From a virus, in IMG/VR virus record IMGVR_UViG_3300050821_006109, positions 1 to 40,101 of that record: 40,101 bases of DNA. One strand, 5' to 3'. The notes under the pieces were generated by a model that did no database searches, was not told the DNA's origin, and worked only from the letters and a program-made list of their open reading frames with translations. Made by a program: the position numbers and the translations under genes. Below, piece after piece: positions 2,768-25,889 of the stretch (position 1 is its first letter; every line of letters starts with the position of its first letter).

Positions 2768-3643
2768 TTAAGCCAACAGCTCATCGAACGACCACAGCCG
2801 ATCCGTCACCTTGGCCGCCATCGCTGGGGAAATCCGCATTTCGCCCGGCCGCCAGCAGAAATTGTAGTAGGCCATGTGGAGGGCGCAGGCGGCTTCCAAG
2901 TTGGCCAGCTTCTTTGAGAAGCCCAGCGCCAGCCGCGTGAACCGCTTCATAAACGTCCGCACGGTCAAGTTGTGCCGCTCGACGTGGCTGGTGCAAATCG
3001 ACCGCTCTTCCGCTTCCGTCATGCTGAACACGGCCCGGCGCTTCGTGCCGACTATTTCCGATGGGGTGTAGGGCAGCAGCGCGTTTTTGTAATCCTTGAT
3101 GATCGTGCCAAACTTCGCATATGGGCCGAAAGCCAGGTCAACCGCCTCGGGATATGCGGCGAATCCATCCGTCGAAATCTGAGTGACCGGCTTGTAGCCG
3201 CCAGCTTGGAAGGCGTGCGCGTCTGAGACGTGCCCGCTCGTCGGCATGGTCAACCGGCTGGCCAAGTCTCGCATGAAGCGCCGGGCATTATCGGCCGACC
3301 GCTTGCCCAGCAGGAACGTCGGAATCAGCTTCGTCCGCTGGTCGATGGAGTACCACAAGTAAATATCGCCGATGTCGCTCCGCTCGGCGCGCTCTTGCAT
3401 CGTGAGCCGCGATTGCTTCTTAGCGACGAACGTCCACATTTCATCCGTCTCCAAATGGTCGAGCGTGAGCGCCTGAAACTCCCGCTCCATCAACTTCTGG
3501 CAATGATCGCCGGCCCAAACGAGCTGGCGCAGGACCGTGCGGATTTGAGTCTGCATCAACCGGCAGACGCTCCGAATCGAATTGCCCTCGACCAGCATCC
3601 GCAAGATCGTGTTTCGCTTCTCGACGCTCATTACGTTGGCCAT
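2768..3643 (-). CDS. IS1-type DDE transposase
   Basis: A 291-residue protein from ATG 3643, with AAAGGGAG in front. Residues 10-45 form an InsA-like HTH (NTILRMLVEGNSIRSVCRLM). The catalytic triad is visible: D67 in ETDEMWTFV, D159 in ISTDGFAAY and E222 in SHVERHN. The C-terminus (LGFSKKLANLEAACALHMAYYNF) is typical of single-frame IS1-family transposases of about 290 residues. No terminal inverted repeats are obvious around it, so it may be a resident or domesticated copy. Transcription probably starts at the minus-strand promoter at 3798-3825, leaving a leader of about 150 nt. Confidence 0.9.
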   Translation of the reverse strand: MANVMSVEKRNTILRMLVEGNSIRSVCRLMQTQIRTVLRQLVWAGDHCQKLMEREFQALTLDHLETDEMWTFVAKKQSRLTMQERAERSDIGDIYLWYSIDQRTKLIPTFLLGKRSADNARRFMRDLASRLTMPTSGHVSDAHAFQAGGYKPVTQISTDGFAAYPEAVDLAFGPYAKFGTIIKDYKNALLPYTPSEIVGTKRRAVFSMTEAEERSICTSHVERHNLTVRTFMKRFTRLALGFSKKLANLEAACALHMAYYNFCWRPGEMRISPAMAAKVTDRLWSFDELLA

Positions 3644-3792
3644 CGCAAAGCTCCCTTTGATTGGGTCGGCTTCGCGAGGTAGAATGCAGGTGTCACGCAG
3701 CATTCTGGCGCTAGCCGCCGGATTGTTGTTGCCCCGATTCAGCCTGCCAGGGTTGAACCGGGGTTTTTTGTCGGAACACCATGCCCGACTGC

Positions 3793-7815: not shown

Positions 7816-10800
7816 CTACGGCCCGAATCTCAGAACCGATACGCTTCCGGCGAAGTCGATCGTATCGCTGTTGGTGCTGTTCGCGCATGTGATCGTTAGC
7901 GCGAGCGTCGTTGTCGGATGGAACATTACGCCGGTTGCCGACGGATTGGCGTCTGCCCGCAGCGAATCCACCAGTGTCCCGTTCAGCAGCGTGCCGAGTC
8001 CGCTAATCGCGCTTCCGGTAAATCCGGCGCTGCCCGCAGCGATCGAAACGCCAACGCTGGTATCGACCGCGTCAAAGCTATCGCGCTTCGCCTGCCCACA
8101 AAGGTTCACTACATACCAACCGGCCGGCCCGGTGAGTTGATTTGAGGTAATCGCGAAATCCGAACCGCTTCCGCCCTGCTGATTCAAGTTGCCGAGAGTG
8201 GCAGTTGTGCTCGATGAAGTCGAAGCCGTGAAAGTTATACTGGCCGCCTCGATACCTGTGGCCATCGGCTGCGCGAACCACTTCTGCAAAAACGTGTCCC
8301 AAAACACCAAGCAAAACTTTCCGCTGGCAACCGCTCCAAACGGAAGATCAACGCCCGTGATTGAATAGCCTTGGTCGCTGCCCGCCGCGTTGTAGATTTC
8401 GATTGTTCCGCTGGTGCTAGTTCCTTTCCCGATGAGCGGTCGGAACATGGGCAGCGCCCACCATTGGGAGTTGGTCACGTCCCAATTCATCACGACCCAA
8501 TCGCCGCTCACGATTTCGCTGTAGGCCAGCGCCGTGACCGCGAAGCCTAGATCGTTCTGCTGATCGTCATAGACTTCGATTGAGCCCGTCGCGCCGGCCA
8601 GAATCGGAGTGCCGCCGCTGTTGTGGTATTTCCCGGTGATGGGTCCGGGGTTCGCCATTGGCACCGCCCACCACTGACCAATCACTCCGGCATTGACGAT
8701 TTGCGGGCTGTAGTCCCAGAAAATCAGCACGTAGGTGCCGACCGGCAAATCCACGACCGGAGCCCACACTTTGTTGGTGTACGTGGCGATGACGGTATTC
8801 AGTTTCGAGTCCAGCACATTGACGACGCCGGTATTCCCGCCGTGCGTAATCGCGGTTGTCACCTTGCCAATCAGCGGGCGGTTGAGCGGCTTGGCGTACC
8901 ACTGTCCCTGCCAGTAGTCGTAAAGCAATTCGACGGTTTCGTTCGTCGCGAACGTGGCCAGCGCGTAGACGTTTGTGAGGTGCAAACTCTGATCGTTGCC
9001 GTGTGAGTCGTATAACTCAATTTGCCCCGTCGCACCCGCGTTGATTCCGACTGAACCGCTGGACCCAGAATATCGCCCGAGTCGTGTTTGGTGAACGCTG
9101 ATCGGAATGGCGTACCACTCGCTCTGATACCAGTCGTACCACAACTCGACTGCGGCCCCGGTTTCCGCCATGTCGAAGCTGGCCCGCGCCGTGAGCGTGA
9201 ATCCGGCAATCGTATTCAACTTGTCGTCCATCACGTCGAACACGCCCGTAGCTTGCTGGGCGAGTCCGTCAGTCGCGCCAGCGCCACCATAGGCCGCCAA
9301 GATCGGCCCCTGTCCAATCGGGATCAAGTAGAAATTCGTGGCCGCAATCGTTCCGCAGCCCGACGTGTAGCTGATTGCAATAACGTAGACCGACTGGCCA
9401 ACGGCTAGCGCACCGAATGGGTTGTAGGCTTGCACGCACTCATTCGTGGCGGTCTCACTGCCCGGCGTTCCCTTGTAGAGTGCGATGGTTCCGGTCGTCT
9501 GCGGCTTGATGATGGCCGTGGTGACTTTGCCCAGCGCCGTCATGTAGCTTTGCACTTCGGCCGACGCGCTAAACGAATCCTGCGAAAGCTGCTCCTCGGG
9601 TCCGAACCCGGCTGGCATCGGGGAAACTTCCGTGTAGTCCTGATACGTCCCGTCGGGCATCTTCAGCACGCCCCAGCGCACGTAATCGTCGTAGCCGGTC
9701 AAAGTCCAATTGCGGATGCCGTTGAACTGGCCGCGCGTGCCGCCGTAGCCTTGATCCCCATAGAACGTCACTGCCGTCCAGTTGAGATAGTCGTCGGCAA
9801 TTTCGTTTAAGAGCGCGTTGATGTCGGCCGCATTGTTCGGCGTGCTGGGGAGCGTGCCGCCGCAGTTGTAAGAGAAGTCGGCCATGAACGTCGTGAAGAA
9901 CGTCTTGGTCGTGCCAGCCTTCACGTTCGGAGTATCATTGTCCAGCACGTTCGAGGTCGGTACGCTCGACTGGAAAACATCGCCGTTGGGCTGCGCCACA
10001 TCGCGCCATGACTTCGGGCAGACGAGCCCCACGTTCTCCGGCAACTGACCATCCCAGCCGTTGTCGCTGCCGTCGTTTAGGTAGCTTTCCGGTCCGCCGG
10101 CGATGAATCCCGCGTCGATTGTGGAATCGGTTGCCGGGTTGTTGTCCTGAAGGCTCTGGGCGGTCTGGTAGTTCATCGACGAGATTACGCCATTGCCTTG
10201 CGGGTTCAGCACCACCCGCTGACCGACCGAGAGACTCACGGCGTCGAACAACAGCGCCACGTTTTCATAGCGGCGAGTGAGTTCCGCCACGTCTGGTTTC
10301 TTGTAGGCGCTGGCGACGGTATCCGCTTTGATCGTCTGGCCGAGTTGCGATTGAATCTGAGTGAACACGTCGGACCAGGCCGACGAACACGTGAGGGCCA
10401 TGTTTCCAGTGTTCAAGAATTGCCAGTAGAACCGCTGATCGACCACCGGCAGAATCCACAGCCCATCGGTCGAAGTCGAGTACCACTGCTTCGACGCCGC
10501 GCCCATAAGGCCATAGAGGGACGTGACGCGCACCGGCCGCAGCACGTTGACCTGAAGGCCGACGCCATCCGTCAAGCTCGGTTCCGCGCCGTTCGTCTTG
10601 AGTGGCGAATCCTGAATAGTCAGCAGATTGCCGCCCAGCGCCGTGACGGCATCGGCCCCTTGATCGTCCACTAGGAATAGGCCAAATCCCCAGCGGGCCG
10701 CGCCCGTCGGCCAGTAGACCGAATTCAGCCGAATCTCCGGCATCGGTGGGTAGTTCGCCACGGGCAAGCCGGTTGCCGCGGTGCGACCGGCTTTCGAGGC

Positions 10801-10941
10801 TCTGCGTAGCGACCAGAACGGGGCAGGCAAGCAGCCGAAAATATGCTCAGCCAAATCGGGGAAGTAGCGCCGCAAGAAACCCTCGACCATATCGTCGGGG
10901 TCTTGCAAGACGATTCGAGTTCCGCCGTAGGATAATATCAT
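7816..10941 (-). CDS. Giant repeat-rich tail fibre / adhesin
   Basis: A 1041-residue virion protein, the last gene of the late operon. The N-terminal ~450 residues have no recognised fold. From about residue 480 to 900 a module of 60-77 residues repeats about six times, each ending in an aromatic signature (EWYAIPI, QWYAKPLNRPLIGK, QWWAVPM, QWWALPMFRPLIGK, KWFAQPM). The last ~140 residues (from ASITFTAST to SVSVLRFGP) look like a C1q/TNF-type jelly-roll, a common trimeric receptor-binding tip. The start sits 7 nt behind the T-run of a terminator without a clear ribosome site. A later start such as MVEGFLRRYF is possible. Role: host binding, inferred. Confidence 0.75.
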   Translation of the reverse strand: MILSYGGTRIVLQDPDDMVEGFLRRYFPDLAEHIFGCLPAPFWSLRRASKAGRTAATGLPVANYPPMPEIRLNSVYWPTGAARWGFGLFLVDDQGADAVTALGGNLLTIQDSPLKTNGAEPSLTDGVGLQVNVLRPVRVTSLYGLMGAASKQWYSTSTDGLWILPVVDQRFYWQFLNTGNMALTCSSAWSDVFTQIQSQLGQTIKADTVASAYKKPDVAELTRRYENVALLFDAVSLSVGQRVVLNPQGNGVISSMNYQTAQSLQDNNPATDSTIDAGFIAGGPESYLNDGSDNGWDGQLPENVGLVCPKSWRDVAQPNGDVFQSSVPTSNVLDNDTPNVKAGTTKTFFTTFMADFSYNCGGTLPSTPNNAADINALLNEIADDYLNWTAVTFYGDQGYGGTRGQFNGIRNWTLTGYDDYVRWGVLKMPDGTYQDYTEVSPMPAGFGPEEQLSQDSFSASAEVQSYMTALGKVTTAIIKPQTTGTIALYKGTPGSETATNECVQAYNPFGALAVGQSVYVIAISYTSGCGTIAATNFYLIPIGQGPILAAYGGAGATDGLAQQATGVFDVMDDKLNTIAGFTLTARASFDMAETGAAVELWYDWYQSEWYAIPISVHQTRLGRYSGSSGSVGINAGATGQIELYDSHGNDQSLHLTNVYALATFATNETVELLYDYWQGQWYAKPLNRPLIGKVTTAITHGGNTGVVNVLDSKLNTVIATYTNKVWAPVVDLPVGTYVLIFWDYSPQIVNAGVIGQWWAVPMANPGPITGKYHNSGGTPILAGATGSIEVYDDQQNDLGFAVTALAYSEIVSGDWVVMNWDVTNSQWWALPMFRPLIGKGTSTSGTIEIYNAAGSDQGYSITGVDLPFGAVASGKFCLVFWDTFLQKWFAQPMATGIEAASITFTASTSSSTTATLGNLNQQGGSGSDFAITSNQLTGPAGWYVVNLCGQAKRDSFDAVDTSVGVSIAAGSAGFTGSAISGLGTLLNGTLVDSLRADANPSATGVMFHPTTTLALTITCANSTNSDTIDFAGSVSVLRFGP
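8270..9330 (-). repeat. Protein-level repeat modules in giant fibre
   Basis: Six diverged copies of a beta-rich unit, spaced about 180-230 bp. Shared features are GKVTTAI- or GKGTSTSG-like openings, an Ile/Glu-Leu/Val-Tyr-Asp strand, a hydrophobic-W/F-D turn (LIFWDY, VMNWDV, LVFWDT) and the W-[YWF]-A-x-P closing signature. DNA identity is low, so the expansion is old. Confidence 0.7.
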
Positions 10942-10947
10942 GGGCGC

Positions 10948-11001
10948 AATAAAAACGGCTCGACACCCGCGCCTTCACGGAAGGCGACAAGCGGCGAGCC
11001 G
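10948..11001 (-). terminator. Terminator-like hairpin before giant fibre gene
   Basis: On the minus strand, the outer stem CGGCTCG/CGAGCCG (10995-11001 with 10956-10962) and inner stem GCCTTC/GAAGGC are followed by TTTTTATT. The next start codon (10941) lies 7 nt beyond. It stands between the aminotransferase gene and the fibre gene in the same orientation. Confidence 0.75.
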
Positions 11002-11024
11002 GGTTCTCCGTACTCGGTAGGTTG

Positions 11025-12134
11025 TCAGTTCAGCTTATCAAACTCGTAGAGGGCTTGCACGACGCGCCGGACCTGTTGCTCTGTCATATCGGCGAACAGT
11101 GGCAGATACATCCCCCGTGCGGCCAGCGCCTGCGATTCGTCGGTTTTCACCGCGGCAACAATGTGTGGCTTGACGTGTGGTTGCTGGGAAAGTGGGGTGA
11201 AGTAACAGCGGGTTTCGATATGCCGATCGGCTAGGCGGAAGCGGAGCGCGTCGCGGGTTGCGTGGTCATGGCACAACAGAGGATAGACCCAAAGCAAACG
11301 ACCAGCCCACAAGGGCTGATGCCAATTCTTTGATAGGCCACCATGATTGGTCGCATCTAAATATGCTGTGCAGAGATTCATACGCGCCGCAATGAATTCA
11401 TCCCGCCGCTCGTGCTGGGCACACCCCAACGCGCCTTGCAATTCCGTCATGCGATAGCCGAACGCCAACTCCCGATGGTTGAAATGCGCTCCCGGCGTGA
11501 AGGCATGGGCGCGGAGGGACCGCAGCCGCTCGGCATCATTTTCCGAGTCGCATAGCACCATACCCCCCTCGCCGCACGTTATCGTCTTGTTGGCGTAGAA
11601 GCTGAAGCAGGCGAAGCGGCCGTGTTGTCCGACGCCCGGAACGTAGTGGGCTTCGGCGCAATCCTCAATCAAGCCGCTGGTGCGCCATTGGAGGTTTTGG
11701 ACCGGCTGCGCATAAGTGTGAACCGCGATAGCCGCTTTGGCTTTGACGTGTTCCGCTAGTGAAAACAAAGATTCTCCATCGACGTTTCCCACGAAATCAT
11801 CACTGCCCAGCACGGCCAGCTTCGCTCCGCAGTACAGCGCCGCATTGGCCACGGCAATCATTGTGTGGTCCGGCACCGCTACCACATCACCCGGATGCAC
11901 GTCAGCGCAAACAAGGGCCAAGTGAAGGGCAGTAGTGCCGCTGTTGCAGGCCACGCCGAACTTGCGCCCGTGCGCCGCCGCGAACTCCCGCTCGAATCGC
12001 TCGACAAATGGGCCGGCCGATAACTGGCAAGCATCGAGCGCCTGATTGACGTAGCGCCGCTCCAAGTCGCCGATTGACGGCTTGGCGACGGGAATAAAAT
12101 CGGGATGTGAGCGGTCTAGTTCAGGTTCAGGCAC
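11025..12134 (-). CDS. DegT/DnrJ/EryC1/StrS-family sugar aminotransferase
   Basis: A 369-residue PLP-dependent enzyme of fold type I. Typical segments are visible: PSIGDLERRYVNQALDA, FGVACNSGTTALHLAL (phosphate-binding), IEDCAEAHY (PLP-stacking Asp and Ala) and FSFYANKTITCGEGGM with the Schiff-base Lys. The family transaminates keto-sugar nucleotides. The GTG start at 12134 overlaps the previous stop by 8 bp and has AGAGG upstream; a longer upstream reading is Arg-rich and unlikely. It is the last gene of the sugar cassette. Substrate: probably an NDP-keto-hexose, inferred. Confidence 0.9.
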   Translation of the reverse strand: MPEPELDRSHPDFIPVAKPSIGDLERRYVNQALDACQLSAGPFVERFEREFAAAHGRKFGVACNSGTTALHLALVCADVHPGDVVAVPDHTMIAVANAALYCGAKLAVLGSDDFVGNVDGESLFSLAEHVKAKAAIAVHTYAQPVQNLQWRTSGLIEDCAEAHYVPGVGQHGRFACFSFYANKTITCGEGGMVLCDSENDAERLRSLRAHAFTPGAHFNHRELAFGYRMTELQGALGCAQHERRDEFIAARMNLCTAYLDATNHGGLSKNWHQPLWAGRLLWVYPLLCHDHATRDALRFRLADRHIETRCYFTPLSQQPHVKPHIVAAVKTDESQALAARGMYLPLFADMTEQQVRRVVQALYEFDKLN

Positions 12135-12657
12135 GATTCGCCTCTGGTTCCAAGATCGCCTTGCGTTCTGCCTCAAGATAAGCCTGCCACGTCGCAATCC
12201 GCTGGTCGATTTCCTCTTTGCTCACGCCGGGAAACAGAATCTCGCGCGCGGCTTGTTCGCGCAGCATCATTTGCCGCTCGGCTTCTTTCATCGCCATCGT
12301 CGAGATTCGTTCCTGCCAATGTTTTTGCTCTGGCGTTGGATCGGGTCGCGGAAATGCCATGATCGGTCCACCGCGACTGGAAAGTTCCTTGAGCATGGCG
12401 TCCATATTTTCTGGCGGCTGGTCGGGATAGACGAAAACACCGCTGGGCAGTTCTCCTAGATCATAGCCCTGCGGCAGCAGTACAACGCGATTGCCGAAGT
12501 ACCCGCTCAAGTATTCTGCCGTCTGCATTTGCAGCCGCTCTTCCTCTGGGTTCTTTGGGATAGGGTGGCGCAGAACGAGAATCGCATCCTTCGCAGGTCG
12601 CAGCAGGATCGGCTCTATTCCGTCCGGGAGATTGAATTGGATGATCGTGTCAGCCAC
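12127..12657 (-). CDS. Hypothetical protein of the sugar cassette
   Basis: A 176-residue protein with GTG start inside an 8-bp overlap (GTGGCTGA). The N-terminal half is beta/alpha (IIQFNLPDGIEPILLRPAKD, then GYDLGELPSGVFVYPDQPP). The C-terminal half is a long charged helix (WQERISTMAMKEAERQMMLR, then EIDQRIATWQAYLEAERKAI). No enzyme motif is recognised. Its place between a glycosyltransferase and an aminotransferase does not settle a function; a virion-assembly role is equally possible. Confidence 0.65.
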   Translation of the reverse strand: MADTIIQFNLPDGIEPILLRPAKDAILVLRHPIPKNPEEERLQMQTAEYLSGYFGNRVVLLPQGYDLGELPSGVFVYPDQPPENMDAMLKELSSRGGPIMAFPRPDPTPEQKHWQERISTMAMKEAERQMMLREQAAREILFPGVSKEEIDQRIATWQAYLEAERKAILEPEANRA

Positions 12658-13660
12658 TCTTCACCCCCATCATCGCGAGCTGCTTGGCAAAGCTCGCCCA
12701 ATCGCCCGGCTTGCACGCCTTGGGAATCTCCGGCACGCCCGCCACTCCGCGCCCGAAGTTGCTGAACGCTTCCAGCAGCCATGTTTGATCGGCGTCGTGC
12801 AAAGGCACCTCGAAACCCGCCGGGGACAGGAATCGGCCAACGCGCTTCATCGGGCAGCGCAGCGATGCTGGCCAGTCGCGATAGGTCGGAAAGTCCGGCA
12901 CGATGCACGGCAAGCCGCAAGCCGCAGCCTCCCGGATCGGCAGCGATAGCCCATCGAAGCGATAGGGATGGACCAAGAGATCGGCATTGGCGTAGAGCCC
13001 GCGGCGGTCGGCGGTCGGCGGCTCGAAACGCACGGCCGAACCCTCAAAGCTGGGCATGACCTTGGGCATTTCCAGCGCCCGGACGGTCAGCAATGCCTCT
13101 GACTTATACAGCCCCCGCGTGGCCGCCAGAATCGCCGCCGTGCAGTTCCGATCGTGGATACCGCCATTGCCCCGGTTGTGGAGCAACCGCCGTGCGGGCC
13201 GCGTCGGGAAGGCCCCAGGGGCCAATGGTGCGGTATCAATCGGCCACTCCAGGCGAATCGAATCGGGATAGTGTTCGGACTCCATCGGCGACGTGGCCAC
13301 GATCAAGTCGCAATCCTTGAACCACGGCGGCGAGCATTCCCACATAGGGAAGCCCAGCATATTTGCGCCGAGCAGTTTGGCTGCGTCGTGCCATAGGACG
13401 TTGTAGCTCGACTCGAAAAACACGATCCACCGATAGCCATCGCACAGCGGGAGAATTTCCTCGAGCGCGGCGGTCGGCGTCACCTTGCCGATGACATTCT
13501 CGAACCGCTCGGGGTAGGTCGGCCGCTTAACGCCGCAGTCCATAATCACGGCGTCGGCTTGCATGTTGCGGCAGAAATCTTCCGCCATCGACGAAATTCC
13601 CATGTTCTCCGCCCTCGCGCAAACGAGCAGCGGCGAGCGGCGCTGTTGCGAATCAGTCAT
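12650..13660 (-). CDS. GT4-like glycosyltransferase
   Basis: A 336-residue protein with the GT-B architecture of GT4 enzymes. The C-terminal donor site is visible as LLVHPYRFDGLSLPIREAAA followed by CGLPCIVPDF, the E-x7-E-type region. The N-terminal half holds the acceptor domain (PLLVCARAENMG, IVFFESSYNVLW). The ATG overlaps the methyltransferase stop by 8 bp (ATGACTGA). It is a soluble protein without membrane segments. Donor and acceptor are unknown. Confidence 0.85.
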   Translation of the reverse strand: MTDSQQRRSPLLVCARAENMGISSMAEDFCRNMQADAVIMDCGVKRPTYPERFENVIGKVTPTAALEEILPLCDGYRWIVFFESSYNVLWHDAAKLLGANMLGFPMWECSPPWFKDCDLIVATSPMESEHYPDSIRLEWPIDTAPLAPGAFPTRPARRLLHNRGNGGIHDRNCTAAILAATRGLYKSEALLTVRALEMPKVMPSFEGSAVRFEPPTADRRGLYANADLLVHPYRFDGLSLPIREAAACGLPCIVPDFPTYRDWPASLRCPMKRVGRFLSPAGFEVPLHDADQTWLLEAFSNFGRGVAGVPEIPKACKPGDWASFAKQLAMMGVKSG

Positions 13661-14210
13661 ACGGCTGCACCTGTACGCGATGAGAGAACCACGGATTGCC
13701 GTGCCACCAAGAAAACAAAGTGAGTTCCATCGCGGCTATGATCCCGTCCGGCTTGAGAAATGGCCGAAATGCCTCCGCGAACGTCGGCTCGTCCATGCCC
13801 AACATCCGCAGCGCCTGTACGCCCAGAATCAAATCGAATGACCGCTCAGGAAGTGACAGCGGCTTGAGGCAGTCCGCCACAATGAACGTCTGATTGGTCA
13901 TGTCGTGCTTCGCCCACAGGTCGCGCATCGCCTCGCAGAAATCTACTCCGGTCCACGATGCGCCTTTGCGAACAATCGCCGGGGCCAGCCGACCATAGCC
14001 GCAGCAAATATCCAGCACTCTCCAGCCGGATTGCACCGTCTCGTCAAGCCATGCCAACACGCGCCGTTCGTATTCGTCGAAGTGCTTAACGTCGAACACC
14101 AGCGCCCGTGCGCCAGATTCGGCGTACTCTTTGGTTCGGGCTTCCCAATACTCTTTGGTCCGAGTTACTTCGGGATTGCTGCGCGGGTCGAGCTTTGCAA
14201 GGTCAGGCAT
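13653..14210 (-). CDS. SAM-dependent methyltransferase, class I
   Basis: A 185-residue protein with motif I VLDICCGYGRLAPAI (about residues 65-79), an acidic residue after the second strand (WTGVDFCEAM) and FDLILGVQALRML as the post-II/III region. It resembles small-molecule or sugar methyltransferases; capping O-methylation of a glycan would fit the neighbours. Both junctions are 8-bp overlaps. It is short for the class but complete through the SAM-binding core. Confidence 0.85.
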   Translation of the reverse strand: MPDLAKLDPRSNPEVTRTKEYWEARTKEYAESGARALVFDVKHFDEYERRVLAWLDETVQSGWRVLDICCGYGRLAPAIVRKGASWTGVDFCEAMRDLWAKHDMTNQTFIVADCLKPLSLPERSFDLILGVQALRMLGMDEPTFAEAFRPFLKPDGIIAAMELTLFSWWHGNPWFSHRVQVQPYD

Positions 14211-15294
14211 GAATCACCGGCAACGGAACGTCGCACTCTCTGAGCAGTACCTTGCACCGCTCGTCATAACTGAAATCCCGCCGACACCGCTCGCGGCCTT
14301 TCGCGGCCATGATCTTGCGCAAGTTGGCTGCCCGCTCATTGCAGAACGCGGCCAGCTTGTTCACGATTACATTCGGATTCGCATTGTGCGGGTAGGTGAA
14401 GAAATCATTACCCGGTTGCCAGCCCTCTTGTTCATAGGGCTGGCCATCCGGCGCGACGTAGCACGCGCCGTATCCTGTGGCGATGTAAATCCGATTGCTC
14501 GCGTAGCCCACCGCCCACGGCGTATCGGGTCCGAGAATCACCTTGCAGCTTGCGGCCAGCGCGGATAGATGATCCGTGCGCACATTGTTGAACTGCCGTA
14601 GCCACAACCGCCGCTCCGCCAATCCGTTGCCGATCGTCGCAAACCACTCGGCCCGGTCGGCGTACAAGTCCCCCAGAAACGCTACGTCGCAGCGGTAGCG
14701 TTCCATCGGGCCTATCGCATCATCGAAGTCATCCGGACACCCTTGGCGCAGCGTCACGGCATTTTCGATATGCGGCGTGGTATAGCCGTCGGTGAGAAAC
14801 ATTCTCGTCATTGACCGCGAGCAGGCCGTCGCCCACGTCCACCGGGCTTGGCGTTGGGCCGGGTCCATGAGGTCGAATGTCCACGAGGCGGTTCTAATTC
14901 CGAGAGCCTCAAGCCGCTTACAGAAGGCGGCAGTCAAAAATCCGTGCGGAGCATCGCCCCAATTGGGCCAATCGGTGAACCGCAGTTTGGCGAACAACAC
15001 CAGGTCAACGCCCCACGTCAAATGCTCCCGGCTGATCGCTTCCATAGCGCCAGCTTCGTCGATCGTCGTTTCCTCGATCTTGACCACCTTGCAGCCGAGT
15101 CGGCGCAAGGCGCGAGCGACGTATGTTTCCGTGGACCATCGTTGTTCATAATGGCCGAAGTAAACGATCCGCGGGCCGGGATGATCGTCGGGATTCCGTG
15201 GCACGGTGACTGACGAATCGAGCGGCCGCTCGGCGCAAGTCGCTTCGTCCAAGCCACGGTCCAAACATTCGTCGATAGCGCCAGAGTCAATCAT
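14203..15294 (-). CDS. CgeB-like glycosyltransferase
   Basis: A 363-residue protein. IVYFGHYEQRWSTETYVARA opens a GT-B N-domain and ASWTFDLMDPAQRQARW follows. The C-terminal part (SCKVILGPDTPWAVGYASNR, then GNDFFTYPHNANP and CRRDFSYDERCKVLL) matches the CgeB/YkvP-type glycosyltransferases with the typical R-[IV]-x-x-ATG-G-A-C segment (RIYIATGYGACYV). Its ATG overlaps the previous stop by 4 bp and its end overlaps the methyltransferase by 8 bp. Probably cytosolic; acceptor unknown. Confidence 0.8.
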   Translation of the reverse strand: MIDSGAIDECLDRGLDEATCAERPLDSSVTVPRNPDDHPGPRIVYFGHYEQRWSTETYVARALRRLGCKVVKIEETTIDEAGAMEAISREHLTWGVDLVLFAKLRFTDWPNWGDAPHGFLTAAFCKRLEALGIRTASWTFDLMDPAQRQARWTWATACSRSMTRMFLTDGYTTPHIENAVTLRQGCPDDFDDAIGPMERYRCDVAFLGDLYADRAEWFATIGNGLAERRLWLRQFNNVRTDHLSALAASCKVILGPDTPWAVGYASNRIYIATGYGACYVAPDGQPYEQEGWQPGNDFFTYPHNANPNVIVNKLAAFCNERAANLRKIMAAKGRERCRRDFSYDERCKVLLRECDVPLPVIHA

Positions 15295-15530
15295 AATTTC
15301 CGCGAGACGAATGAGATATGCCGCCCTTTAATGACCAGAACCATTGTCCCGTTGAGCAAATTGACTGCCACCGGCTCAAGACAAGAATCCCATTCGACTA
15401 CATCACCCTTCTGGATATCGCCTTCGACGAGCGGCCCCCTAAGCCGCACGATTCCCTGCGTCGTGAAATACAAGGTCGTTTCGGTTGGCTCAACCGTTAC
15501 GCAATCGGCGAAAAGGACGATATCTGTCAT
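15291..15530 (-). CDS. Small beta-rich hypothetical protein
   Basis: A 79-residue protein starting MTDIVLFADCVTVEPTETTL. It is almost all beta strand (LYFTTQGIVRLRGPL, VVEWDSCLEPVAVN, GTMVLVIKGRHISFV) and may be a small virion decoration or spike component. AAGGAG lies almost against the ATG, which is closer than normal. The CgeB-like gene overlaps its stop by 4 bp. Confidence 0.6.
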   Translation of the reverse strand: MTDIVLFADCVTVEPTETTLYFTTQGIVRLRGPLVEGDIQKGDVVEWDSCLEPVAVNLLNGTMVLVIKGRHISFVSRKL

Positions 15531-15576
15531 GCTCCTTCACCAGCGCAAATCATCCATTCGAGGGAAGTTGCGGCTA

Positions 15577-15816
15577 TCAAGGGGCAACATCCCGATTGAG
15601 AAACTTGGCGCGACACGGCTTGCCGGCCATTGCCGGGGCCAGCACTTGCGCAGCCGGTTCCTTGATGTTGCCGATGTTATCCGGGCCGTCCAGCGGCAGC
15701 AGCTTGTGGAGCTGGTTGTCGGCTTGCAGCCGGCAGTAGTCTCCGGCCGCCAGATTCTCAAAGGCCGGATAGGCCGCTTCGTTGTCAGTTGCGCCTGGGA
15801 ATTTCGTTCCGATCAT
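15577..15816 (-). CDS. Small hypothetical protein
   Basis: A 79-residue protein starting MIGTKFPGATDNEAAYPAFE. GGAG lies 5 nt upstream and the ATG overlaps the RHH-like gene by 4 bp. Segments AAGDYCRLQADNQLHKLLPL and GKPCRAKFLNRDVAP suggest a compact beta domain. No family recognised; position suggests a minor virion protein. Confidence 0.55.
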   Translation of the reverse strand: MIGTKFPGATDNEAAYPAFENLAAGDYCRLQADNQLHKLLPLDGPDNIGNIKEPAAQVLAPAMAGKPCRAKFLNRDVAP

Positions 15817-15974
15817 GGGTTCTCCAATCCGAGTCGATGGCGGACAAATTCCGTAAGAGAGACAAAGTATTGCCGCTTGGTGCGATTGACCAATCCGGCC
15901 CGCTCTTTAGCCGTCATGCGGATGGTAACAAAGCAATCGCGTTTCAGGCCGGGTGGTTTCCGCTTGGCAACCAT
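15813..15974 (-). CDS. Ribbon-helix-helix-like small protein
   Basis: A 53-residue basic protein: MVAKRKPPGLKRDCFVTIRM, then TAKERAGLVNRTKRQYFVSL and TEFVRHRLGL. The strand-helix-helix pattern with FVTIRMT and SLTEFVRHRL fits an Arc/MobC-like RHH fold. A DNA-binding protein in the middle of a tail and sugar module is unexpected. It overlaps the next gene by 4 bp (ATGA), which supports real translation. Confidence 0.65.
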   Translation of the reverse strand: MVAKRKPPGLKRDCFVTIRMTAKERAGLVNRTKRQYFVSLTEFVRHRLGLENP

Positions 15975-16005
15975 GCCCAAAGCGTATTACGGCATGGCCG
16001 AACCG

Positions 16006-16749
16006 TCAAGGCGAATACTTGTGGGCGCTCGAAACGGTGCCGAAATGATGAGCCAACTCGGTCGGCGGATACCAGAGGCCGCCGTATCTGCTGCCGAAAA
16101 ATCCGACAACTTGATCCACCGCTCGCCAGCCGTACTGACTTCGCCAGCGGTGCAATACCACGTCGGGCGAGCAAAGCAACTCGCGCAAGGCCGGGGCCGT
16201 GAAGAAGAGAGCGCACGCTCCACCGGTCCACCAGCCTTTATCGACTTGCTGCCAGTCGTCCCAGTCGTCCATGCCCGGCGGTTTGTACAACGAACCGACG
16301 ATTGGCTCGTCCGGTGCGCCATGCGACTCCAAGAATTCCGCCAGCACGGCCTTGGTATCTGGCTCGACTACTACGTCATCCTGAAAGTAGATGTAGAGCG
16401 AAGCGTGCGGGCAGCGGTAAAACAAAGTCGAGAGGCAGTGCATGAAAGCGCCGAACGGCCCGAAGTACGGCTTGCTGCAATCGTTCAGCGAACAGCCGCC
16501 GCCAGCGAACCCGGCTTGGAACAGCGAAGTCAGGCACCGCTCAAAGGTCGGCGGCTCGCGAGGGGCCGTGCTGACAATCCACACCAGAGAATTATCGACG
16601 GCCTCGGCGCGGCGGGTGTAGTGTTCGCATTCACTGCAAAACTTCTCATCGGTCGGCGCGTTGAAGAATTTGCAGCCGACAACGGGGCCATTTTCCCAGT
16701 GGTCCGGGTCGCCGCTGAATACGCAACTATAGAGCTTGGGGAGTGGCAT
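16006..16749 (-). CDS. GT2-like glycosyltransferase with DXD-type motif
   Basis: A 247-residue protein. SLVWIVSTAPREPPTFERCL resembles the start of a GT-A fold. IYFQDDVVVEP (about residues 118-128) is a metal-binding QDD motif, and WWTGGACALFFTAPALREL and RAVDQVVGFFGSRYGGLWYP form the acceptor half. The N-terminal ~50 residues carry four Cys (GCKFFNAP, FCSECEHY) and could bind zinc. It is the first gene of the sugar cassette in transcription order. Sugar donor unknown. Confidence 0.75.
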   Translation of the reverse strand: MPLPKLYSCVFSGDPDHWENGPVVGCKFFNAPTDEKFCSECEHYTRRAEAVDNSLVWIVSTAPREPPTFERCLTSLFQAGFAGGGCSLNDCSKPYFGPFGAFMHCLSTLFYRCPHASLYIYFQDDVVVEPDTKAVLAEFLESHGAPDEPIVGSLYKPPGMDDWDDWQQVDKGWWTGGACALFFTAPALRELLCSPDVVLHRWRSQYGWRAVDQVVGFFGSRYGGLWYPPTELAHHFGTVSSAHKYSP

Positions 16750-20400: not shown

Positions 20401-22374
20401 TCACGCTAGGCTAGGATTGTTGCCGGAACTGCTGCTGCCGGTCGCGGGCGGGAAATAGCTGCTGGCCGTGAGTCCAGAGACAGCGCCAGAACCGCCATAG
20501 AGCGCCGCATCCCACGGCACGAAAGCCGCCGGCAATGCCGCGCCGGGCTGCGGTGCGGTTGTCAGCGCCCACCACATTTCAGCTTGCACGGTGTACTGCC
20601 ACTGACCGCTAATCATCGGCTGCCGAGCCGGCTGATTGATCTTTGCGCGTCCGATAGGAAACGCCTTGCCGCCGGCCGGATCATTGTAGGGCTGCTGCAA
20701 GGGAATCGTCGGCGGCTGGCCGACTCGGCTCCCTTCCAAGCGAACAAGTTTCCTGGCGACGGGCGAAGCAATATCAACGACCACGCACGTTCGCTGATCG
20801 TTCTGGGCTACGCCGTCGGCCAACGGGCATTGGGCGCGGATAAAGTCGGTTTCGTAGCGGGTCTCAATTTTCCAGTCGGTGTAGATGCCATTGCTGGTCG
20901 CGGTCGTATTGTTGTCGAGCGCTTTTCCGGTGGGCTGCTGCGCTGGTAGCGACGTGCTTTGGTAGTTCTGCACGGTTGTTCCCGGCGCATTGCCGTTGGT
21001 GTTTCCGCTTCCACTCCCCGGCGTGGCAGTGCTAGGGCTTTTTCCAATTCCCTGGATTCCCGCGCAGGGGTCTTGAAGGAAGCAGACGAACGCATAGGCT
21101 GCCGACCCATCCGGCACATTCGGTATTCCCACTGAGCTGAGCGGGTTGTAAACGAAATCAGCGCCGCCCACGGCCGCATAGATTTGCAGCGGCCCCGCAG
21201 GTTGGTTCGGATCGTTCAGGAACGTCCCCCACACGTCTTGCGGCTGGGCTTGCGTCGATTCCGGGCCGGTTTGTTGAGTGACGAAGTTCTGCGTGAATTG
21301 AACCGTCGTGCTGACCTCGATAATCGAACTGTCAACATGGTCCACCAGCTCCATGCCGAGATAGGTCCACTGGGTGGGCTGACCGTTGGAGTCAACATTC
21401 AGCAGCAGCCGATTTTCAATCACGACTAGCGCACTATTGAGCATCGCGTTCTTATCAACGGTCGGCGGTCCTTCCATGACGATGTAGACACTGCCAATCG
21501 ACATCATCGCGTCTTTCCCGTTGGGCGACGAAATCCGATGGACACACTGCCAGCTCGTCGCGGGATAGGGTGCAGCCTGCGCAACCTGCACGTCATTTAC
21601 GACGTAGAGCAGTTCCAATCCGTCCGCACTGCGGTCCGTAATGATCGAATCGCGGCGGAATCCAGACGACAGCGGCGGGAACGCCATATTGCGAAAGGCG
21701 TCCGGGTCCACCTGCGGCGCTGCAACCCGCAAGCGGCCGGTAATGGTCCGCGTAATGAAGCTGTTGCGATTGACCGCCTCCATGACGCTCCACCGATTCG
21801 AGAGAATCGACGACAGCGGCGAGCCGGTGCAAATCGTGCCCATCGCCTCAATCTCGAATTCGATCTTGAAGATTCCCTTGCCGGCGATTTGTGTCACGCG
21901 GAGATTGAGCGGCTTGGGGCCGTTGTCGATGTCAAATTGCACGTTACCGCCAGCCGACACGCCGGGAATGTAGATACCCGAACTGCCAATGCCGTTGGTG
22001 TTGATCGGTTGTGGGCCGTCCTGATTCCCATAGATCGATACCATCACCTTGCCACCGATGGACAGAGATAGGTTTTGCCGCGGCGTGAGCATCGCCTGGC
22101 GAATGATCGTCTCGGAAGTCACCGTGTCGGATGATGCGGTTGGGCCTGCGCCGGTCAGTCCAAATCCAGTGAACGGCAGCGCGGCTTGGGAAAGCGGAGT
22201 CGAGAGATAGCCCACAAAGAAAATGTAGTAGCGGATTCCAATGGGGTCGGTGCGCGTCGGATCGTATTCGACTTTTTGTAGGAAGTCGCGCGTCGTGCCG
22301 TTGATGATCGTAATCCCACCGTACTGCAAATCGCTGCCGTTGCCGAGGGTGGGGAAATTTCCGGGCTGCGCCAT
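20401..22374 (-). CDS. Tail/baseplate structural protein
   Basis: A 657-residue protein from MAQPGNFPTLGNGSDLQYGG; the longer frame upstream overlaps the previous gene and is rejected. Mostly beta, with a Ser/Gly-rich C-terminus (PATGSSSSGNNPSLA) and a low-complexity linker around residue 465 (TPGSGSGNTNGNAPGTT). Size and place directly after the tape-measure candidate suggest a distal tail or baseplate component. Start and previous stop share one base (TGATG). Confidence 0.6.
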   Translation of the reverse strand: MAQPGNFPTLGNGSDLQYGGITIINGTTRDFLQKVEYDPTRTDPIGIRYYIFFVGYLSTPLSQAALPFTGFGLTGAGPTASSDTVTSETIIRQAMLTPRQNLSLSIGGKVMVSIYGNQDGPQPINTNGIGSSGIYIPGVSAGGNVQFDIDNGPKPLNLRVTQIAGKGIFKIEFEIEAMGTICTGSPLSSILSNRWSVMEAVNRNSFITRTITGRLRVAAPQVDPDAFRNMAFPPLSSGFRRDSIITDRSADGLELLYVVNDVQVAQAAPYPATSWQCVHRISSPNGKDAMMSIGSVYIVMEGPPTVDKNAMLNSALVVIENRLLLNVDSNGQPTQWTYLGMELVDHVDSSIIEVSTTVQFTQNFVTQQTGPESTQAQPQDVWGTFLNDPNQPAGPLQIYAAVGGADFVYNPLSSVGIPNVPDGSAAYAFVCFLQDPCAGIQGIGKSPSTATPGSGSGNTNGNAPGTTVQNYQSTSLPAQQPTGKALDNNTTATSNGIYTDWKIETRYETDFIRAQCPLADGVAQNDQRTCVVVDIASPVARKLVRLEGSRVGQPPTIPLQQPYNDPAGGKAFPIGRAKINQPARQPMISGQWQYTVQAEMWWALTTAPQPGAALPAAFVPWDAALYGGSGAVSGLTASSYFPPATGSSSSGNNPSLA

Positions 22375-23066
22375 CAGAAGCCTCCCACATTGGCCTGGCG
22401 GCCGTTGTCGAGAGGCGCGATACGCTGGTGGCTGTTGGAAATAGAGTGAGCGCGTTCGTGAATGAATTTCCAACCGATTGGACGCCCACCGTCCGGGTCT
22501 ACGTTTTTCGGCGGGGCTAGCAATTTAAGAGCGTCCAGCACGGCTTGAAATCCGGGAATAATTGCGCCGGCATTGGTCGCCAGATTATTCAAGCCGGTGT
22601 CAAACTTGTTTCGCAAAAGCTGCCCAGCCTGCTGAAGCGGTTGGAATTCTTGCTCTAGTCGATTGCGCGAGTCGAGATTTTCTCGAATCGACGGCTCTAA
22701 TGCCGCAGCGTTTTGCTCCTGCCGCACAAGCCGATTTTGTTCGAGTTGAGCGTACTGGCCGCCGACGCGTTCATTCACTTGGCGGAACTGCTCGCTCCGG
22801 CGCTCGACTCCGCTTTGCGGCCCCTGCCAAGCAAAGGTTTGGCTGCCGCCGGAACTGTCGCCACTGCGCGAAGCTACGCCCTTGATCGTGTCCGAGAGTC
22901 GATCGACCGCCCCCGATTCCTGCTTGACCGACTCGGCTTCCTTCTTCGTAGCCTTAGCCGATTCGGCCGCCGACTCGCGCAGCAGGCGCTCTTGAATCCC
23001 CTCGTCGCGCTGGAGCTTTCCGCCCTTCCCCTGGAAGAACGTGCCGAAGATTGATGGGTCAGCCAT
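22374..23066 (-). CDS. Short tape-measure candidate, coiled coil
   Basis: A 230-residue protein. A long charged helix (about 15-60, ESAAESAKATKKEAESVKQE) is followed by a second helical zone (about 85-150, Gln/Arg/Glu-rich) and a hydrophobic stretch (ANAGAIIPGFQAVLDALKLL). It stands directly behind the predicted frameshift chaperone, where tape-measure genes sit in tailed phages. It is far shorter than typical tape measures (600+ residues), so it would imply a very short tail. It may instead be another minor tail protein. Confidence 0.5.
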   Translation of the reverse strand: MADPSIFGTFFQGKGGKLQRDEGIQERLLRESAAESAKATKKEAESVKQESGAVDRLSDTIKGVASRSGDSSGGSQTFAWQGPQSGVERRSEQFRQVNERVGGQYAQLEQNRLVRQEQNAAALEPSIRENLDSRNRLEQEFQPLQQAGQLLRNKFDTGLNNLATNAGAIIPGFQAVLDALKLLAPPKNVDPDGGRPIGWKFIHERAHSISNSHQRIAPLDNGRQANVGGF

Positions 23067-23414
23067 TTAACGAATCCTCCGCGTGCGCACGGTGCAAGCC
23101 TTAATTCCCTGCAGCGCATTGCTCAAAGCCTCTTGCGCCATGCCGTCCAAGATCATTCTTGATTCGCCCTGCGCCGCCACTTCATTGACCTCTTGCACGT
23201 CGTCCGTTTCCGTGAGTTGCATAGCCCGCGATGGATAGCCGCGTTTGGCCGACGTGGCCCCGAGGTAGTGAACCGCTGCCTGAACCGCTTTAAGCCGCGG
23301 CAGGGAAAAGACAGCCGCCATCGCAGCCTCCCGGCGCTCTAGGCGGCTGAGCCCGAGGCTGTCGATAAGACCGGAGCCACTGACGGCGGCGGCGTCCACA
23401 ACGGTGCGCCATTT
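23067..23414 (-). CDS. -1 frame extension of tail assembly chaperone
   Basis: This frame continues from the A9 run at 23412-23420 in the -1 frame and adds 115 residues to the first 109 of the upstream gene. Its sequence (AAVSGSGLIDSLGLSRLERR, EAAMAAVFSLPRLKAVQAAV) is helical and has no good independent start. A GTG at 23399 or ATG at 23321 could be used, but neither has a ribosome site. Expected fusion: about 224 residues, the counterpart of lambda gpGT. Confidence 0.6.
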   Translation of the reverse strand, partial: KWRTVVDAAAVSGSGLIDSLGLSRLERREAAMAAVFSLPRLKAVQAAVHYLGATSAKRGYPSRAMQLTETDDVQEVNEVAAQGESRMILDGMAQEALSNALQGIKACTVRTRRIR

Positions 23415-23740
23415 TTTTTTAGCGCAGACACGTAATCCTTGAGGCAGCAGTAAATCTGGAATGCCTCATTGTCCGTCGTGCCCCGTCCATCCGGCCCCAG
23501 TTCCAAGAGTCCGAACGCTTCCCGCGTGGCCTTGGCGACGTGCGACACGGCCGCCAATCTCTCGACATCATCGGCCGCATAGCAGGCGTCAAATGTCTCG
23601 TCCTGCTTGAACCAATCGAGCGTGCCGAGAATCGACCAGACTTTGAGCGGGTCCGCACAGCGCACACGCCGACCATCGTGGAATCGGAAGATTTCCCGGC
23701 CAGACCACGGCTTGCGAAATAGGCTGCTGAGAAACATCAA
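23339..23740 (-). CDS. Tail assembly chaperone (gpG-like)
   Basis: A 133-residue protein, ATG overlapping the previous stop by 4 bp. The N-terminal part (FRFHDGRRVRCADPLKVWSI, then LGTLDWFKQDETF) and a helical middle (EAFQIYCCLKDYVSALKKN) fit small tail chaperones, though sequence identity cannot be proved here. Position is decisive: after the head-tail connector and tail protein, before a coiled-coil tape-measure candidate, with a slippery A9 run near its 3' end. Confidence 0.6.
   Translation of the reverse strand: MMFLSSLFRKPWSGREIFRFHDGRRVRCADPLKVWSILGTLDWFKQDETFDACYAADDVERLAAVSHVAKATREAFGLLELGPDGRGTTDNEAFQIYCCLKDYVSALKKNGAPLWTPPPSVAPVLSTASGSAA
23411..23436 (-). promoter_or_regulatory. 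A9 slippery site for predicted -1 frameshift
   Basis: On the minus strand nine consecutive A (23412-23420) read CTA AAA AAA AAT in frame, containing the classic A-AAA-AAA heptamer. Shifting -1 leads into the open frame that ends at 23067. An SD-like AAGGA stands about 15 nt upstream, a known stimulator of -1 shifts in bacteria. A GGCG/CGCC pairing is possible just downstream. Confidence 0.65.
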
Positions 23741-24252
23741 GATGTGCTTTGATCGTAAAGGTGATAGGGACTGGCCCGGTCAACGTGCGCCGTTGCCACG
23801 ACCAGATACCGCTCGTATTGCGTGCCGCGATTCGAGGCGATCGGTTCGGTGAACTCGACCAGCGGGAAGTTGATCGGATCGTTGGCCGCGTTCAGCAGCA
23901 GTCGGTAGCCGTAGCCGCCTTGGAATTTCAGGTAGCCGCACTCGTTCGGGTTGAAGATACGGGCCGCGCCGGTGTTGACGCCTTGCAACCGAGCCCGAAT
24001 GCCACTTAGCACGCTTTGATCGAAGTCGGAGATTTCCAGTCGCACGATAGCGATGAATCCGAACGTCTGCCGGTCGGCCGGCGGCCCTGCGTCCCCGCCG
24101 TACAAATCGCTCTGGACGTTCTCAGCGAATTCATGCTCCTCAATTTCCGGCATGTTCCGGCAGTAGCCCAGCAGCGACAGCGACCCAAAGGCAGCGCCAT
24201 ACGCTCCCACGTAGATCGGTGTCGCAGCAGCAACTTGATAGGCTGGGGCCAT
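23737..24252 (-). CDS. Putative tail protein
   Basis: A 171-residue protein starting MAPAYQVAAATPIYVGAYGA. Beta-rich throughout (FGFIAIVRLEISDFDQSVLS, then YLKFQGGYGYRLLLNAANDP). Position between the gp36-like connector and the tail chaperone suggests a tail tube or tail terminator protein. The family is not recognised from sequence alone. Its end overlaps the chaperone start by 4 bp. Confidence 0.6.
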   Translation of the reverse strand: MAPAYQVAAATPIYVGAYGAAFGSLSLLGYCRNMPEIEEHEFAENVQSDLYGGDAGPPADRQTFGFIAIVRLEISDFDQSVLSGIRARLQGVNTGAARIFNPNECGYLKFQGGYGYRLLLNAANDPINFPLVEFTEPIASNRGTQYERYLVVATAHVDRASPYHLYDQSTS

Positions 24253-24809: not shown

Positions 24810-25889
24810 TTACGGCGTGGTATAGGCCGACTGGTAGAGGACCGTGGCGGCCGGAGCCGTGGGCACGACCGCGTAATCCTCGACCACGCGCAGCTTGTCC
24901 ATTCGATCCCAGGTATCGGACACGCGCTCGACGGTCATTTCCTCGAACATGAATTGCGTGAAGCTGGCGAACGACGGACCACCATACGTCCCTTCCAAGC
25001 CACCCGGTCGAGCGCACAGGAACGGCGTGGCGTCCGGCATGACGAACTGCTTGACCGTCGTGACGCCCTTCTGGGTGATCGTCTCGACCGTCTTTTCCAC
25101 GACCAACGGGATGCCGTACAAGTTGTCCGGCAAGCCGAACAGCGTCCGCCGGCCGGGAATCTCGCCGCGGAGAACCGCCAACGCGTCGGGCGACTGCTTG
25201 ATGATGTCGATGAACTCCTGGCAGGCGCGGATGCCTTCCGCCATGTTCGGTGAAATGACGAGAATGAATTCGTCCTCGTTCACCGCCGACAAAGTGTTGA
25301 GCAGGATCACTTGCAAGCCGTACATCAGCGACTTGTAGATGTCCATTCGCACCGAGGTCGAGTCGTTCCACGAGCCCGTCGTATTGGGAATCTCGACGCC
25401 GTAGGTCGGCGAAGCGACACCCGGCGAGAGAATGTTGCTGCTCGCAAAGTTCGCCACGTTGGTTGCCGCCGTCACCACCAGTTGCGTGCGGGCCGTCATG
25501 GCCAGTTGCGCCATGATGCCTTCGTGCATTGAGGCGATGTCCCACGAGGCGTTTTGCAGCGTCCGGTGTCCGAGCGGCACCGGGAATTGGTAGCGCGTGC
25601 AGAAGAAATTCAGCCACTCGAACGATTCTGAGTTGGCGTACCCGAACTGCGCCGGAATGTTATCGGGAAACACGAAGTCTGCCAAGTTGCCGTTGAGGAT
25701 GCGCCCGGCCATTTCGACCGTCATTTGCAGGTAGTAGCCCTGCACCTGAGTCACCGGCACGATTTGCGCGTACTTGTTCACGTCGAACTTCTTGGGATTG
25801 CGCGAGAAGTTGACGATCATCCGGTTCGACGCTTCGTGCGAGGGCACGAATACGTTAGTGGAGGATGGAAAACTGGGGGTCTGCGGCAT
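24810..25889 (-). CDS. Major capsid protein
   Basis: A 359-residue protein. Its place after scaffold and decoration genes and before the connector, its size, and features such as QNASWDIASMHEGIMAQLAM, EDEFILVISPNMAEGI and the late FTQFMFEEMTVERVSDTW fit an HK97-fold capsid subunit. No N-terminal delta domain is obvious, in keeping with a separate scaffold gene. GGAG lies 11 nt before the ATG. The 5' part in the minus strand contains a long out-of-frame shadow that is not a gene. Confidence 0.8.
   Translation of the reverse strand: MPQTPSFPSSTNVFVPSHEASNRMIVNFSRNPKKFDVNKYAQIVPVTQVQGYYLQMTVEMAGRILNGNLADFVFPDNIPAQFGYANSESFEWLNFFCTRYQFPVPLGHRTLQNASWDIASMHEGIMAQLAMTARTQLVVTAATNVANFASSNILSPGVASPTYGVEIPNTTGSWNDSTSVRMDIYKSLMYGLQVILLNTLSAVNEDEFILVISPNMAEGIRACQEFIDIIKQSPDALAVLRGEIPGRRTLFGLPDNLYGIPLVVEKTVETITQKGVTTVKQFVMPDATPFLCARPGGLEGTYGGPSFASFTQFMFEEMTVERVSDTWDRMDKLRVVEDYAVVPTAPAATVLYQSAYTTP

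Follow-up and report, generated by a model that had tools for sequence, protein, structure and literature searches.

The slippery site of gpG/gpGT, the tail chaperone gene of phage lambda, is GGGAAAG. It is widely known that tail chaperones undergo -1 frameshifting at a low level (PMC5009743, PMC10885494); the phenomenon is widely conserved (PMC5009743), and measurements on two HK97-like chaperone genes gave frequencies of 6 to 7% (PMC3711429). In lambda and its analogues (e.g., HK97), two overlapping open reading frames (ORFs) lie between the tail tube and tape-measure positions, and a -1 shift shortly before the first ORF ends yields a short product and a longer fusion (PMC5009743). We found the same arrangement on the minus strand of a 40,101-base IMG/VR virus record (IMGVR_UViG_3300050821_006109), called the window below. 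However, the window pair has no detectable sequence relation to the known chaperone families, and, unlike lambda, the main clade of its relatives carries a run of 8 to 10 A's as the site, around which we found no conserved stimulator. We put the probability at roughly three in four that an uncultivated tailed phage has here a putative gpG/gpGT-like chaperone gene whose fusion is made by a ribosomal -1 slip.

Direct reading of the minus strand confirmed the starting observation of an earlier sequence-only reading, namely, an A9 run at 23412-23420 with an in-frame A-AAA-AAA. The nine T's on the plus strand become A9 in the minus-strand mRNA, which reads CTA AAA AAA AAT GGC in the frame of the ORF running from 23737 to 23339; the overlap therefore contains the X-XXY-YYZ heptamer A-AAA-AAA, and A-AAA-AAT follows one codon later. 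The frame-0 ORF (23339-23737, minus strand), which a hidden Markov model (HMM) of relatives matches, encodes the putative short, gpG-like tail assembly chaperone with 132 aa from the ATG at 23737 or 133 aa from the TTG at 23740. The second ORF overlaps it in the -1 frame (23067-23414, minus strand, with the stop at 23067) and would supply the C half of a putative gpGT-like fusion, whose length of 223 aa from the ATG or 224 aa from the TTG agrees with the previous estimate of about 224 residues. The A9 is the sole homopolymer of at least 8 in the window, but the run alone is weak evidence, because an A/T run of at least 9 arises in 27% of windows simulated with a first-order Markov model of the window.

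The neighboring genes support the proposal that the pair encodes a tail assembly chaperone. Directly upstream of the chaperone gene lies a minus-strand gene (23737-24252) whose AlphaFold model (pLDDT 81) finds largely tail tube and related tail proteins as its best PDB matches, which establishes the tube fold of this neighbor; the window protein had no match in the family libraries, and three other members of the tube alignment match phrog_2175 weakly. The genes farther upstream encode a Mu gp36-like head-tail adaptor, a Mu-type portal, and a large terminase. On the other side, a gene for a 230-aa protein (22374-23066, minus strand) starts where the -1 frame ends. The tape-measure neighbor named in the sequence-only reading thus holds as to its position and its same-position homologues in relatives (215 to 734 aa), but the window protein had no tape-measure match in the family libraries, so its position is all that makes it a tape-measure candidate. 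Neither chaperone half matched a known chaperone family in PHROG or Pfam, and a PDB search with the fold of the N half gave no match either; the top BFVD matches of the N half are annotated tail assembly chaperones, at statistically nonsignificant scores. Position and layout together support a chaperone role, and the placement between the tube and tape-measure positions supports a gpG/gpGT-like pair.

Several other features were seen along the way. The candidate tape measures are short proteins of very variable length, and the tails would be short if these proteins are the rulers; in one relative (L013), the protein at this position (10725-12566) includes a collagen-like repeat stretch (Pfam PF01391, 7.7e-7). 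Elsewhere on the minus strand of the window, an IS1-type DDE transposase match (Pfam DDE_Tnp_IS1, 2.7e-7) spans 2768-3667 in an ORF that runs on to 4009, and a glycan/sugar cassette at 11025-16749 comprises a DegT/DnrJ aminotransferase, two glycosyltransferase-like proteins, and a methyltransferase by Pfam, plus one further ORF.

Because no relatives came up in IMG/VR or the phage collection with the 132-aa protein as sole query, we used as a marker the candidate capsid protein at 24810-25889, which was named from gene order and had no match in the family libraries. Its search returned 11 loci at 43% identity, and alignment-based capsid searches then gave 49 and finally 80 loci in IMG/VR, as well as 11 in genome MAGs, where a first scan with a narrow capsid alignment had given no matches. 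HMMs of both chaperone halves were run against the collected loci. The pair counts take in the loci in which both halves were recognized (L032, L035, and L037 are among those left out), and because there are close relatives among the counted loci, the independent lineages are fewer than the counts. In those three loci, no chaperone pair was recognized after the tube gene, and they may be too divergent or rearranged.

Comparison of the junction in related phages, which the sequence-only reading had proposed as a check, gave a uniform picture. In the first set, the C half lay in the -1 frame in 28 of 28 loci with both halves, with A-AAA-AAA at the junction in 27 and A-AAA-AAG in the remaining one (L029). 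In the full set, all 38 distinct main-clade loci combine the -1 relation with a junction run of 8 to 10 A's, the run of 10 occurring in L052 and the others being 8 or 9. A sister clade has the -1 relation in 12 of 12 loci with both halves, at G-GGA-AAC in 11 (L038, L041, L043, L046, L117, L119-L121, L124, L125, and L127) and at A-AAA-AAC in L047, the slippery site lying 13 nt from the end of the frame-0 ORF. These counts establish the layout and its conservation. A homopolymer of about 8 or more therefore marks the junction in all main-clade loci (A8-A10) and is absent from the sister clade. Across 35 main-clade loci (558 kb), 35 of 35 junctions carry at least 8 A's, whereas A/T runs this long occur 8 times elsewhere when both strands are counted; it is the conservation of the junction run, rather than the run itself, that exceeds chance in these sequences.

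The SD-like AAGGA that had been pointed out upstream of the run is indeed present (23440 to 23436, minus strand, 15 nt upstream) and was considered as a possible stimulator. It is, however, unremarkable, since 14% of positions in the same ORF are as strong, and no consistent counterpart was found across the relatives. The downstream RNA fold in the window was likewise unremarkable, and a search for a conserved stimulator structure gave no support. Neither element is therefore supported as a conserved stimulator.

We infer the ribosome as the slipping agent, as we do the slip rate and the chaperone function. Most ribosomes would read the frame-0 ORF to its stop and release the short 132-aa chaperone, while a minority would slip back one base on A-AAA-AAA within the A9 and continue in the -1 frame to give the 223-aa fusion. 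If lambda is a guide, the N half common to both products would bind the tape-measure protein, and the -1 domain would bring in the tail tube protein, the product of the upstream neighbor. Ribosomal -1 frameshifting on tandem lysine codons has a counterpart in Escherichia coli dnaX, whose heptamer A-AAA-AAG is A rich and holds tandem lysine codons like the main-clade site and is exactly the one found at the L029 junction; dnaX differs in being another gene with another outcome, for there the shift gives the shorter product. In E. coli, A-AAA-AAA is reported to be much less shift prone than A-AAA-AAG (PMC5009743).

The same protein would result if RNA polymerase slipped on the A9, adding one A (or dropping two), and the altered mRNA were translated into the -1 frame; sequence cannot tell the two mechanisms apart. 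The length of the run speaks for the polymerase. With 8 to 10 A's at 38 of 38 main-clade sites, it is at least one A longer than a heptamer needs, and lysine codons outside the junction are mostly AAG in these loci. Runs of more than 7 A's serve transcriptional realignment elsewhere, as does the A9 of Thermus dnaX (PMC3711429) or the A11 of Citrobacter rodentium tssM1, a transcriptional slippage site (PMC4256274). Together with the Shigella type III slippage genes, these two share with the main clade at least 8 A's at the junction and two length variants per gene. However, the run is only A8 in 10 of 35 main-clade cases, and a third lysine in the fusion, conserved among relatives, accounts for part of its length. 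Moreover, the sister-clade relatives depart from such sites in keeping the -1 layout at G-GGA-AAC or A-AAA-AAC. We therefore regard slippage by RNA polymerase as unlikely but by no means negligible, and both mechanisms may contribute to the fusion. It is conceivable, if rather improbable, that the main clade makes its fusion wholly or partly by RNA-polymerase slippage and the sister clade by a ribosomal heptamer, in which case the recoding step would have moved between translation and transcription with its product conserved. Ribosomal frameshifting on the tandem lysine codons is the likeliest and simplest reading, because in the sister clade the layout persists although its heptamers contain no long homopolymer.

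Whichever machine slips, the -1 frame is a coding sequence. HMMs built with the window left out match the window N half at 2e-17, and the C-half model matches, among all frames of the window, the -1 frame after the run (4.8e-6). Selection was measured in pairs of relatives close enough for the purpose, the window itself being too divergent: dN/dS values are 0.09 to 0.42 in the N half and, beyond the frame-0 stop, 0.11 to 0.41 in the C half; most values for the frame-0 tail are 0.56 to 1.9, and in the overlap the constraint is stronger on the -1 frame. The C half is thus under purifying selection in relatives, and the frame-0 tail, whose length varies from 7 to 56 residues across the relatives, is mostly without it. 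The conserved C domain starts directly at the junction. The alternative that the -1 frame is a gene in its own right, read from its own start codon, no fusion being made, has one point in its favor, a GTG in the window (23399) 5 codons past the junction, which qualifies the original remark that this frame lacks a good start. However, no start codon is conserved in the -1 frame of the relatives, and 5 of 21 loci (L003, L013, L029, L031, and L033) lack one over the whole stretch from the -1-frame stop to 30 codons past the junction. With the start of the conserved domain also falling at the junction, the comparative data lead us to reject independent initiation, which we consider very improbable.

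An error of sequencing or assembly, or a decayed gene whose halves truly form one frame, is just as hard to credit and was rejected on the comparative data, since, even though homopolymers are error prone in general and the support rests on assembled sequence, many assemblies contributed the 38 + 12 distinct loci in which the same -1 relation recurs, the heptamers there are of three kinds, and both halves are under purifying selection in relatives. According to the frame relation in both clades, the HMM matches, and the dN/dS values, the frameshift and fusion first proposed from the window are upheld, and the programmed -1 frameshift is, on this comparative evidence, almost certainly real.

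The host is likely to be among the Planctomycetota, because 8 of 11 MAG contigs with a capsid relative are titled as groups of that phylum, a reading that depends on MAG titles and thus on the uncertain binning of viral contigs. None of the capsid candidates tried had a detectable homologue among the isolate phages in the collection, and a literature search on this frameshift and on siphoviruses of Planctomycetota found no report of the frameshift. Therefore, we may describe the pair as a new, well-supported example of a widely known tail-chaperone frameshift, in a clade that escapes current family models. It adds a clade without an isolate match, whose relatives occur mostly in Planctomycetota MAGs, to those phages whose tail chaperone is frameshifted. 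The A8-A10 run at the junction can serve as an annotation marker for chaperone genes that the PHROG and Pfam models miss; meanwhile, the two related clades, one with A runs and the other with G-GGA-AAC at the same junction, offer a natural comparison of ribosomal against transcriptional slippage.
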